A DNA stretch of 64,000 nucleotides, from positions 1 to 64,000 of the forward strand of contig JAEPNO010000013.1 of the NCBI GenBank assembly GCA_017643365.1, written 5' to 3'. Below, piece after piece: positions 1 through 11,703 of this stretch; the first letter of the stretch is position 1; each line of letters begins with the position of its first letter. Under the pieces are notes generated by a model. That model was not told where the DNA came from. It worked only from the letters and a program-made list of their open reading frames with translations, and ran no database searches. A program made the position numbers and the translations under genes. The DNA is from Balneolaceae bacterium (GTDB lineage: Bacteria > Bacteroidota > Rhodothermia > Balneolales > Balneolaceae).

Positions 1-24
1 CTCGGTTCGACGAGATTTAGTAGA

Positions 25-1281
25 TTACTTCGAAGACAGATACTTAACCCCTGACACACTTAATTGAACACTCCCACGATTTACATTCACTTGATTACGG
101 AACTCCATGCTTCCCCAATTGATAAGACTATCGGCAGAGTTATTGTTGTTCCAGTTTTGGATGGAAACTACTCCTGTTTCACTTACTGCAACCGTACCGG
201 TATTATTACCGCTTATATTTTGGAAAGTAGCGTTCCCACACACTTCCAGTCGCCCGGCTTGTTGAAAGAAAACCGAACCCGAAAACTCACCCGATAGGCA
301 TTGGGTTTCTCCGCCCGAAAAACGTATTTGCCCAGAGGTTTGGGTGACCGGATTAGCGCAGTCACACGTTATGCCTGAACCTTCCGGTTCATCTACCGGC
401 TCAGGCAAGCGCTCGGCCAAATACTCGGCATTAAAATACAACAGCGCGTAGCCTTCACTAGTTAAACTCTCATCTTTCTCTTGTTCCACCAACTCTATAA
501 AGTTAGAAAGGGCGTTGGCTGCGGACAGGGAATCCCCCGCTTGCAAATTGGCTTTTACTTCAGAAAGATCGTTTTCCAACTTCCCGCAAACCTTGGCATC
601 AGTCGCCCAATCTAGTTCGGTGCAGGATCGGAAACGGAATGTTTCGAGGGTGTCAGAGAAGGAGTCGAGGCTTATTGTAGAATCGGGGAGCCAAGGGCCT
701 AGGGTGAGTTTTTCTACACCTACTGAGCTGAGCGAATCTACTATACTATCTAGTTTTCCAAAAGGACCCTCCAACTCATATGGAAATGAAACCCAGAAAG
801 TATTTTCTGAGATGCTAGTTGATATTGAAGGTGGGTAGTCTGACTCAAAAGAATAGTTAGTCAAACTATTTCCTGGCGTAAGTCCAGGAACGCCTTTAAT
901 TTTTGACCAAAATATGTATCCCCTATTTTGCGAATATATACCTAACCATTCAGAACTTGGAGTAGTAATGTTTGATACTAAAAGACTTGAAATAATGTAA
1001 AAACGCCGAAGTAGTTGAAGAGATTCGAGTTCATTTGTTAATTCATATCTATAATGAAAATTACCTGATTCATTCTCAGAAACCATAGCTTTTATAGTTG
1101 GTATGACATTATTCCTGGGCATTATTGTTCCAGTAAATGAACTGTCTGAATCTGGATATTTATATGTTAAAACATAATATCCTTCTAGTGAATCGTATCT
1201 AATTTCTTCTATTAGTTGTTGTGAATAAACTAAATCACAAAGTAAAATTACTAAAGAAAGTGCAAGTATATATTTTCTCAT
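25..1281 (-). CDS. Exported protein with FIMAH-like helical module and beta-rich C-terminus
   Basis: No function is recognised. A signal peptide covers about residues 1-20, ending at LVYSQ-Q. Residues about 60-190 form a beta-rich domain with the pattern YRYELTN...W...PGNSL. Residues about 205-300 hold a helical module (DTLETFRFRSC ... LQAGDSLSAANALSNFIELVEQ) like the FIMAH domain (moderate confidence). Both parts recur in the proteins at 9335-10722 and 10834-11703. Only this copy has an extra C-terminal section with cysteines and N/S/G-rich repeated strands, suggesting a beta-helix, and it stops abruptly, so it may be truncated. It starts 6 nt after the interrupted gene upstream, so the two are probably co-transcribed. 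Confidence 0.7.
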   Translation of the reverse strand: MRKYILALSLVILLCDLVYSQQLIEEIRYDSLEGYYVLTYKYPDSDSSFTGTIMPRNNVIPTIKAMVSENESGNFHYRYELTNELESLQLLRRFYIISSLLVSNITTPSSEWLGIYSQNRGYIFWSKIKGVPGLTPGNSLTNYSFESDYPPSISTSISENTFWVSFPYELEGPFGKLDSIVDSLSSVGVEKLTLGPWLPDSTISLDSFSDTLETFRFRSCTELDWATDAKVCGKLENDLSEVKANLQAGDSLSAANALSNFIELVEQEKDESLTSEGYALLYFNAEYLAERLPEPVDEPEGSGITCDCANPVTQTSGQIRFSGGETQCLSGEFSGSVFFQQAGRLEVCGNATFQNISGNNTGTVAVSETGVVSIQNWNNNNSADSLINWGSMEFRNQVNVNRGSVQLSVSGVKYLSSK

Positions 1282-3534: not shown

Positions 3535-4002
3535 CTAAGTGTCTTTGGTAGCTGGAATTGAAAAAATTCTGGAATCTTGGAAATATTCAAACAACTCGTT
3601 ACATGTTAATGATGGATTCTTATAGTTTATTGGGGTTCCAAGTACTTGCGTAACCGTGCTTGAACCTGATAATACAGTATTAGGTTTTGTTACCGTATAG
3701 TTCCATAGATCATCTGAGTTCCGGTTATAAAAAGAAGCATTTTGCACTTTTAATTTCAGGTAGCCGGATTTCAATACTCTATATTTGCCAAATCCAATTT
3801 CGCGTAGATCAGGATAATAAAGCGCCCCCGGGTCTGCTATTTTGGTTTTGTAATTACTCGGAAAGTTCGCATCAGCATCATTGCTTTCAGAAACAATTTC
3901 AACCGTCTCATAAATAATAACCTGTGCATCCGCACTATATATTGATAAAAAAGTAAATAATAGTATTACTACTACCCTTGTTTTTACACCCCGATTTTTC
4001 AA
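3535..4002 (-). CDS. N-terminal segment of interrupted exported protein
   Basis: The TTG start at 4002 opens a signal peptide (basic KNRGVKTR, then VVVILLFTFLSIYS, cleavage near ADA-Q). About 130 residues of unrecognised beta-rich sequence follow, ending in FSIPATKDT at TAG 3537-3535. The frame continues open after the stop. The leader 27 nt upstream matches the leader of the gene at 11703 in sequence and spacing, which supports the unusual TTG start. Confidence 0.5.
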   Translation of the reverse strand: MKNRGVKTRVVVILLFTFLSIYSADAQVIIYETVEIVSESNDADANFPSNYKTKIADPGALYYPDLREIGFGKYRVLKSGYLKLKVQNASFYNRNSDDLWNYTVTKPNTVLSGSSTVTQVLGTPINYKNPSLTCNELFEYFQDSRIFSIPATKDT

Positions 4003-9334: not shown

Positions 9335-10102
9335 TTAATGATCCCCACCCTCCAATCTCCTTCGTAAATACTCGGCGTTAAAAAACAGCAGGGCATAGCC
9401 TTCGCTGGTTAAACTCTCATCTTTCTCTTGTTCCACCAACTCTATAAAATCAGAAATGGCGTTGGCAGCAGACAGGGAATCTCCCTCTTGCAAATTGGTT
9501 TTTATCTCAGAAAGATCGTCCTCTAACTGCCCGCAAACGGTGCCATCATTTGCCCACCCTAATTCTTCGCACGATCGAAAGCAAAAGGTTTCGAGGGTGT
9601 CGGTAAATGAATCGAGGCTCATTGTGGAGTCGGGGAGCCAAGGGCCGAGGATGTAACCTGAGAAGGAATTTGACATCAAAACTGATGAAGAGCTTATTCC
9701 ATACTTACCATTATTACCTTGTATGAAAAAAGAACTTACTCGGGGAATACCTAGAGAGTAAAAACTTAATGAGTCAGTACTTTCCCCAGGTTTGATTAGT
9801 GATTCCCTAAAATAGTCAAGAGGAATCTTTATGCTCCAGCTTATTAATCCATTTGACATATTAGGACTAAATTCCCAATTTTTTGGAAGAATAACTGTAG
9901 AGGGGGGGGTTGCTAAATTTTTTAGAGCAATATCTTCAATAGATTGAAGACTTTCTTCACTATTAAATACTGAGAAATTATAACGGAACTTAGTTCCGAT
10001 GGAGGCAACCTGAACGGAAAGGGCAGCATCCAAAGCATTTCTTGGCAAGGGGTTAGGCCGGGTTATTATACTTTTTTTATAATTTATCCCATCCCATCCC
10101 AT
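9335..10102 (-). CDS. Exported-protein C-terminal part, out of frame with upstream half (pentamer frameshift)
   Basis: This holds the same two domains as the proteins at 25-1281 and 10834-11703: a beta-rich part (FRYNFSVFN ... ISWSIK ... IKPGEST) and the helical FIMAH-like module with LQEGDSLSAANAISDFIELVEQ, ending near EYLRRRLEGGDH. It has no signal peptide of its own. It begins inside the end of the upstream frame at three GGGAT repeats. With two repeats the frames join as FQWDGINYKKS, giving one protein of about 460 residues. A run of eight C (9902-9909 on the complementary strand) lies within the coding region. Confidence 0.6.
   Translation of the reverse strand: MGWDGINYKKSIITRPNPLPRNALDAALSVQVASIGTKFRYNFSVFNSEESLQSIEDIALKNLATPPSTVILPKNWEFSPNMSNGLISWSIKIPLDYFRESLIKPGESTDSLSFYSLGIPRVSSFFIQGNNGKYGISSSSVLMSNSFSGYILGPWLPDSTMSLDSFTDTLETFCFRSCEELGWANDGTVCGQLEDDLSEIKTNLQEGDSLSAANAISDFIELVEQEKDESLTSEGYALLFFNAEYLRRRLEGGDH
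9902..9909. repeat. Homopolymer tract of eight G (C8 on the coding strand)
   Basis: A G8 run sits inside the coding part of 9335-10102, encoding T-P-P. It is currently in frame. Such runs are prone to slippage and stand out in AT-rich DNA. Confidence 0.6.
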
Positions 10103-10722
10103 TGAAATGTAACCGGTTCATCATTCCAATCAACCCCAATAATCTCTTTTATTCCATTAGGTTCAAAATCTACCACCTGAATAGAATAATCTTTTAATTT
10201 TATTTCAGATTCACCAAAAACATCAATTGTATTAATTCTTTCGCCAGAGACTCCATTCCAGGAATAAATCCAGAGTTCAGTGCTAGTTCCACGCATTCCT
10301 TGATCCCATTGCGAAATTATTTCAACGTTTCCATCCCCATTTATATCTAAAATGCCTAACACTTCAGAATTCAGATTATTAAACAAAATTTCTTTTTCAG
10401 ATTGCCACAGAATGCCCCCATCCTTATAGATACCTACAAAAGCATATCTTTCATCAGAATCATTATCTACTGGCCCCATTGTGGTAAATAAATATCCGTT
10501 ACTGAATATTTGATTCGGATTTTCAAATCCAAAGTTAAGATTTGGATAATACTTCTTGTTATAGGCAGCTATATAATATGTATCTCCAGTTTGTTGAAGT
10601 ATCAAATCTGAAATCTCTTGTTCTATATTTTCAATTCCGTTAGAACTTATTTGTCCATAGGACAGATTATGTGATAAAAGAAAGATGAATACAATTGAGA
10701 TATGTTTGACGGATATTTTCAT
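10084..10722 (-). CDS. Secreted VCBS/FG-GAP-like protein, N-terminal part of a frameshifted gene
   Basis: A signal peptide spans about residues 1-23 (MKISVKHISIVFIFLLSHNLSYG-Q). The body resembles FG-GAP/VCBS propeller repeats: LDINGDGNVEIISQWDQG, and VVDFEPNGIKEIIGVDWNDE. It ends VTFQWDGMG at TAA 10086-10084, directly on three tandem GGGAT units. Removing one unit continues it in frame into 10102-9335. It lies 111 nt downstream of 10834 and is probably in the same operon. Confidence 0.65.
   Translation of the reverse strand: MKISVKHISIVFIFLLSHNLSYGQISSNGIENIEQEISDLILQQTGDTYYIAAYNKKYYPNLNFGFENPNQIFSNGYLFTTMGPVDNDSDERYAFVGIYKDGGILWQSEKEILFNNLNSEVLGILDINGDGNVEIISQWDQGMRGTSTELWIYSWNGVSGERINTIDVFGESEIKLKDYSIQVVDFEPNGIKEIIGVDWNDEPVTFQWDGMG
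10086..10100. repeat. Three tandem ATCCC/GGGAT pentamers at a frameshift
   Basis: The plus strand reads ATCCC three times, then AT. On the coding strand this is (GGGAT)3. Three copies give a TAA stop for the upstream frame; two copies would fuse it to the downstream frame. A pentanucleotide repeat of this kind can switch a frame by slippage. Confidence 0.75.
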
Positions 10723-10833: not shown

Positions 10834-11703
10834 TTAATTCTCACCCACCAATCTCCTTCGTAAATACTCGGCGTTAAAATAAAGCAGCGCGTAGCCCTCG
10901 CTGGTTAAACTCTTGTCTTTCTCTTGTTCCACCAACTTTATAAAGTCAGACAGGGCATTGGCAGCGGACAGGGAATCCCCCGCTTGCAAATTGGCTTTTA
11001 TATCAGAAAGATCGTTTTTTAACTCCCCGCAAACCCCGGAATTGGTAGCCCAATTCAGTTCTTCACAGGACCGGAAACGGAATGTTTCGAGGGTATCGGT
11101 GAATTCCAGCGTATTTTCGATTCTATTTTCTTGTGGAAAAATCATATGCCCCTTTTTAGCAGTGTCAAAGAATGAGGAATTCTCAACTGAATCTGGTTCT
11201 TGACCAGCTTGAAGGATTATCCAAGCCCAACCCTCCATAAAGTACGGTTTTATAGTTGGCAATTCTTTAGATGTGAAACCAAAACCATCAAGAACTTCAC
11301 CTGGTTTAACTCTAAACTGAGCCTTTTTTGAGGCCCAAGAAATTCTCCCTGGATTTCCGCTCTCATTATAACTCCAATTTGAAGGAGATTTTATAGAATG
11401 GATCTTGGAATCAGAAATTATTAACCAATACCACACGTTTTGCTCGCTTGATAATTTATTTTCTATAGAATAATTATAAACTAATGATTCATCTTTTTTA
11501 GAAACCTCAATTGAAATTTCTATCTCGAACTTATCTTTCATTGGGTGAGTAAAAATTGTTAGAGAGTCACCATTAACTACCTTAGTTCTGCTTTGAGCAA
11601 TAATATTGCTGGATAAAGCACAAATTAAAAAGAGAGAAACGATTGTAGGTCTGTTAACTACCCCCGAAGCTCCAGTGGCCATTTTTATTTTCCAATTATT
11701 CAA
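10834..11703 (-). CDS. Exported protein with FIMAH-like helical module
   Basis: No function is recognised. A TTG at 11703 or ATG at 11682 opens a long N-region followed by a signal peptide (IVSLFLICALSSNIIAQ). The middle domain (LVYNYSIENKLSSEQ ... WSYN ... RISWASK ... VKPGEVLDGFGF) aligns by eye with the corresponding parts of 25-1281 and 9335-10102. The last ~95 residues are the shared module (DTLETFRFRSCEELNWATN ... LQAGDSLSAANALSDFIKL). It is the first gene of the second family operon and has the shared inverted-repeat leader. Confidence 0.72.
   Translation of the reverse strand: MNNWKIKMATGASGVVNRPTIVSLFLICALSSNIIAQSRTKVVNGDSLTIFTHPMKDKFEIEISIEVSKKDESLVYNYSIENKLSSEQNVWYWLIISDSKIHSIKSPSNWSYNESGNPGRISWASKKAQFRVKPGEVLDGFGFTSKELPTIKPYFMEGWAWIILQAGQEPDSVENSSFFDTAKKGHMIFPQENRIENTLEFTDTLETFRFRSCEELNWATNSGVCGELKNDLSDIKANLQAGDSLSAANALSDFIKLVEQEKDKSLTSEGYALLYFNAEYLRRRLVGEN

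Follow-up and report, generated by a model that had tools for sequence, protein, structure and literature searches.

A surplus GGGAT unit splits the gene of a predicted exported FIMAH-type protein in a Balneolaceae bacterium: probable recent inactivation of one ancestral gene

When a reading frame breaks at a short tandem repeat, is the repeat a switch, the scar of a gene loss, or an error in the assembly? The question is raised by a locus of Balneolaceae bacterium (assembly GCA_017643365.1, contig JAEPNO010000013.1), where two minus-strand open reading frames (ORFs) meet at three tandem GGGAT pentamers. The locus was analysed within positions 1 to 64,000 of the contig, a stretch of 64,000 nucleotides to which we refer as the window. 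An earlier note, made from the letters of the window, had proposed that the two ORFs are halves of one exported protein and that the repeat has the classic layout of a gene for a phase-variable surface protein. The features on which the argument turns are the following.

10084-10722, minus strand: upstream half, a 212-codon ORF with a signal peptide and an FG-GAP-like part, its stop TAA at 10084-10086
9335-10102, minus strand: downstream half, a 255-codon ORF in which a middle domain is followed by a FIMAH-like C-terminus, without a signal peptide of its own
10086-10102, minus strand: tandem GGGAT array of 3.4 perfect copies (TRF), the site of the frame switch
10654-10722, minus strand: signal peptide of Sec type by visual inspection, MKISVKHISIVFIFLLSHNLSYG
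10138-10347, minus strand: FG-GAP_3-like stretch, below threshold, residues 126-195 of the upstream half (P0001)
9362-9535, minus strand: FIMAH-like domain, below threshold, residues 190-247 of the downstream half (P0002)
9902-9909, minus strand: C8 homopolymer, in frame, inside the downstream half

On the minus strand the site reads ACA TTT CAA TGG GAT GGG ATG GGA TAA ATT. The upstream ORF (10722-10084) closes with ...VTFQWDGMG*, its TAA lying immediately past the array, and the downstream ORF (10102-9335), which opens with MGWDGINYKKS, is in frame -1 with respect to the upstream one, the two overlapping by 19 bases that contain the ATG at 10102. That the frame switches exactly at three tandem GGGAT units, as the note had claimed, is borne out by the ORF coordinates, by TRF and by a mechanical count of copy-number states, in which 2 or 5 copies (2 modulo 3) are the only numbers that leave the 460-codon frame open and 1, 3, 4 or 6 copies bring a stop at codons 211-217. 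The surplus unit aside, these 460 codons are free of other stops and frame changes. In a codon-usage test each half is stop-free, and scores best, only in the frame given here, though the signal is weak, the codons of this gene type being atypical. The (GGGAT)3 site itself (GGGATGGGATGGGAT, 10086-10100, minus strand) is a single occurrence both in the window and in the 3.77-Mb genome. By chance, 0.1 perfect three-copy pentamers are expected per window; on the 464 kb of the genome over which the background rate was measured, one perfect pentamer array of at least three units was seen against 1.4 expected under a third-order Markov model. Arrays of this type are thus rare locally and not enriched in the genome, and it is the coincidence with the frame switch that goes beyond chance.

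Whether the halves belong together can be judged from related genes. The halves were searched separately in related genomes and then jointly in 92 genomes of the family, and five full-length homologues were recovered from four related Balneolaceae genomes, every one of them a single ORF of about 460-780 codons: 463 residues in G002, of the same genus, 462 in G045, about 762 in G039, which is extended at the C-terminus, and open frames of 487 and 472 codons in a pair of adjacent G100 genes. Among the full-length types found, only the present copy is split. In the alignment, an invariant W.G pair marks the point at which both halves meet, and the DNA of G045 at the junction, AAA TGG GAT GGT ATA AAC TAT, matches the two-copy reading of our locus, CAA TGG GAT GGG ATA AAT TAT, nearly base for base. 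The ancestral state is therefore two copies, and the present assembly carries one surplus unit. None of the five full-length homologues has a tandem repeat at the junction. A scan of genome contigs for nearer relatives returned four loci only, with no sister strain among them. Read from these comparisons, the view that both ORFs are one gene, broken by one surplus GGGAT, is strongly supported. The note's two-copy reading, which joins the halves into a protein of ~460 residues, has accordingly held up; it had named homologues that are always two genes as the observation that would speak against it, and all five full-length homologues proved to be the opposite.

The same comparison bears on two readings in which the break would be no lesion at all. 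According to the first, two separate genes overlap here by chance. Stand-alone paralogues of the downstream half do exist (P0003, L010, L011), but they own signal peptides, which the downstream half does not, and the homologues of the pair are fused, with the W.G of the junction present in both halves. Judged by the single-ORF homologues, this reading is largely refuted already, and we consider it the most improbable of all. According to the second, translation itself would bridge the break, either by a -1 shift near GGG ATG GGA TAA or by a restart at the ATG at 10102, so that the halves would be made in a fixed ratio. The 19-base overlap with its ATG would suit such coupling, and a hairpin can be drawn across the array and the bases downstream of it; yet that hairpin is unremarkable (z = -1.35, with 20 of 200 shuffles as good), a canonical X XXY YYZ heptamer is missing from the upstream frame, none of the five homologues shares the break, and a downstream half made in this way would be without a signal peptide. 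Programmed frameshifting or translational coupling is, in our estimation, highly improbable.

What the intact gene would encode is less sharply defined. FG-GAP_3 scores 17.8 bits in the upstream half, under the Pfam cut-off, and FIMAH (PF22888) scores 19.8 bits in the downstream half, under the gathering cut-off of 24.8 that is exceeded by both the neighbouring paralogue P0003 (27.0 bits) and the homologue P0006 (26.5 bits). The domain labels are weak, yet they hold: the C-terminal half can be aligned with the exported FIMAH-domain proteins of Balneolaceae, paralogues and homologues alike, at 31-49% identity, differing from them in being part of a split full-length type, and the full-length homologues also start with an apparent signal peptide. 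The product may fairly be described as a predicted exported and probably surface-related protein, of repeat type in its N-terminal part and FIMAH-like at its end, and the note's claim of an exported protein with VCBS-like and FIMAH-like parts is supported to that extent, at sub-threshold scores. The predicted structure of the G002 homologue, with a mean pLDDT of 42, is too poor for use, and a literature search for FIMAH brought up nothing but papers about the fimbriae of E. coli, which are unrelated. In several relatives (L068, L073, L075, L076, L081) FIMAH genes lie near ORFs whose ends resemble a sorting signal for type IX secretion, as in ...YFYRIIADAPSKKKIIEDKKMMLIK.

The surroundings of the split gene contain further members of the same gene set.

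10834-11703, minus strand: paralogue of the downstream half (P0003), intact-looking, with its own signal peptide, 44% identity
1288-4002, minus strand: gene of an exported protein, in parts CBM96-like and Peptidase_M74-like, with two in-frame stops, TAG at 3535-3537 and TAA at 2173-2175
25-1281, minus strand: FIMAH paralogue that meets the end of a multicopy element at about position 75 and is cut there
1-75, minus strand: end of this multicopy element, which recurs at eight further contig ends

Within the same 12 kb, two related genes are broken as well: two nonsense codons interrupt one of them, and the end of a multicopy element cuts the other. In the gene at 4002-1288, one frame of 904 residues is interrupted by two in-frame stops. 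The first falls inside a CBM96 domain: with X written in place of the stop, the domain scores 37.3 bits instead of 18.4. At the second, the G002 homologue (52% identity), a counterpart in which the N-terminal part is missing, is open. The FIMAH paralogue at 25-1281 stops abruptly in the 75-base sequence common to eight other contig ends and has thus been cut by a multicopy element; Transposase_mut (PF00872), sought as the identity of that element, had no match in the genome. The CBM96- and FIMAH-type neighbours evidently form a dispensable gene set, and one more frameshift among them needs no special reason.

The locus, then, holds one ancestral gene with one surplus unit, currently in the off state and set among broken neighbours. 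The explanation that we favour, and hold to be probable, is that a recent five-base duplication made by slippage inactivated the gene, an ordinary loss within a related gene set that is being lost in the lineage. In the ancestor, the Trp-Asp-Gly-Ile codons TGG GAT GGG ATA would by chance have held two GGGAT units, to which slipped-strand mispairing would have added a third. The +5 insertion would shift the frame and end translation after ...FQWDGMG, so that the product would be at most a truncated, exported N-terminal part, and the FIMAH-bearing half has no signal peptide and would probably not be made. Loss of one unit would restore the frame, and the change is therefore reversible in principle, though we do not think of it as a maintained switch. 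Because chance supplied a two-unit array in these codons, a single slippage event suffices as explanation. As to pseudogene criteria, intact single-ORF homologues and a defined lesion are both present. Further degradation, which would be expected of an old pseudogene, is absent from the 460 codons and is seen in neighbouring genes only, so any decay must be very young. We infer that the lesion is recent, was made by slippage and is not under selection for switching. Against decay stand the intact-looking paralogue at 10834-11703 and two homopolymer tracts, the C8 run of this gene and a G8 run in its G039 homologue, which decay leaves unexplained. Should the tract prove not to vary, the locus would show cleanly how two pentamers that adjoin by chance lead to a slippage frameshift, and would warn against calling any short array at a frame break a phase switch.

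A more mundane alternative to inactivation is that the third unit arose by error in sequencing or assembly, or that the assembler chose a minority allele, and that the true sequence has two copies. In favour of this, the assembly is a draft of 51 contigs whose ends hold collapsed repeats, and there is no other break in the frame. On the other hand, a whole and perfect five-base unit is atypical of base-call errors, other long ORFs in the window are without obvious frame breaks, and the two in-frame stops of the neighbouring gene cannot stem from indel errors. We regard an error as unlikely.

The reading that the earlier note preferred is that the array slips between two copies (on), three (off) and other counts, so that the full protein is exported by a fraction of the cells. 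The architecture invites this interpretation: the array lies inside an ORF, the length of the repeated unit is no multiple of three, and both halves are otherwise open. There are, moreover, pentamer precedents in Haemophilus influenzae. The lipopolysaccharide flippase of the hmg locus (HI0867) carries a TCAGC pentamer in its ORF whose 2 and 3 units match on and off states (PMC2651432). As in the GGGAT gene, two units fit expression and three do not; there, however, copy number differs between sequenced strains, whereas here we have one assembly, of an unrelated lineage, and an exported protein. In hsdM, pentamer slippage likewise shifts the coding frame, but the (GACGA)4 array has four units and changes at a measured high rate, as against three units known from one assembly (PMC2651432). 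The (GCTGGC)n array of Salmonella mutL is a further likeness, in that the gain or loss of one unit in a very short array turns the function of the gene on or off; its 6-base unit keeps the frame, though, and the 5-base GGGAT breaks it (PMC2955026). One difficulty is the length of the array. Studies that use PhasomeIt set the pentamer cut-off at five units (PMC6321876, PMC5953494), above the three present here, and one study sets it at three (PMC2651432), so that 3.4 units clear only the loosest threshold, at the bottom of the calling range. The note's description of the locus as classic for a phase-variable surface gene is not supported: classic tracts have at least five units (PMC6321876, PMC5953494), and further the homologues are repeat-free at the site, the class of array is not enriched in the 464 kb of genome, and the related neighbours carry inactivating lesions of other, unrelated kinds. 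None of the papers searched mentions phase variation for Balneolaceae. Phase variation strikes us as possible, if doubtful. Were the tract to vary within a population, it would represent repeat-driven switching of an exported protein outside the host-associated pathogens in which such switching has mostly been described.

The homopolymer tracts speak on the side of switching, each being rare in its genome. G/C runs of at least eight number only six in the whole genome, a rate at which roughly 0.002 would be expected in a gene of this length, and one of them is the C8 run of the downstream half; the G039 homologue has its G8 run at a different place (L065, about codon 190 of a 784-codon frame), in a genome that has no more than seven of them. 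When relatives were searched for G8 tracts, the counts differed widely between genomes, and for this reason the coincidence of C8 and G8 is only suggestive. We treat the pair as a lead that favours switching, spotted post hoc and made up of in-frame tracts that, at eight bases, are short. A bolder version would have the environmental Balneolaceae turn exported FIMAH proteins on and off through several small tracts in each gene, GGGAT and C8 here and G8 in G039; to this we give little credence, though if it were true the FIMAH family would be a set of contingency genes.

Other G/C runs came to light as well. Two G9 runs lie 333 bases apart in this genome (L019, 1501-1509 and 1834-1842; G000:C5:32288 and 32621), one just upstream of and the other inside the same 348-codon open frame, so that the pair is a candidate means of controlling a further gene by slippage. 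A C8 run stands where a frame of 111 codons is truncated (L017, 1479-1811; G000:C3, about 119719); this frame resembles the start of a two-component-regulator propeller protein and is adjoined by a second truncated copy. In the assembly of a relative, a G homopolymer of more than 70 bases, possibly an artefact, begins at G100:C2 position 586716.
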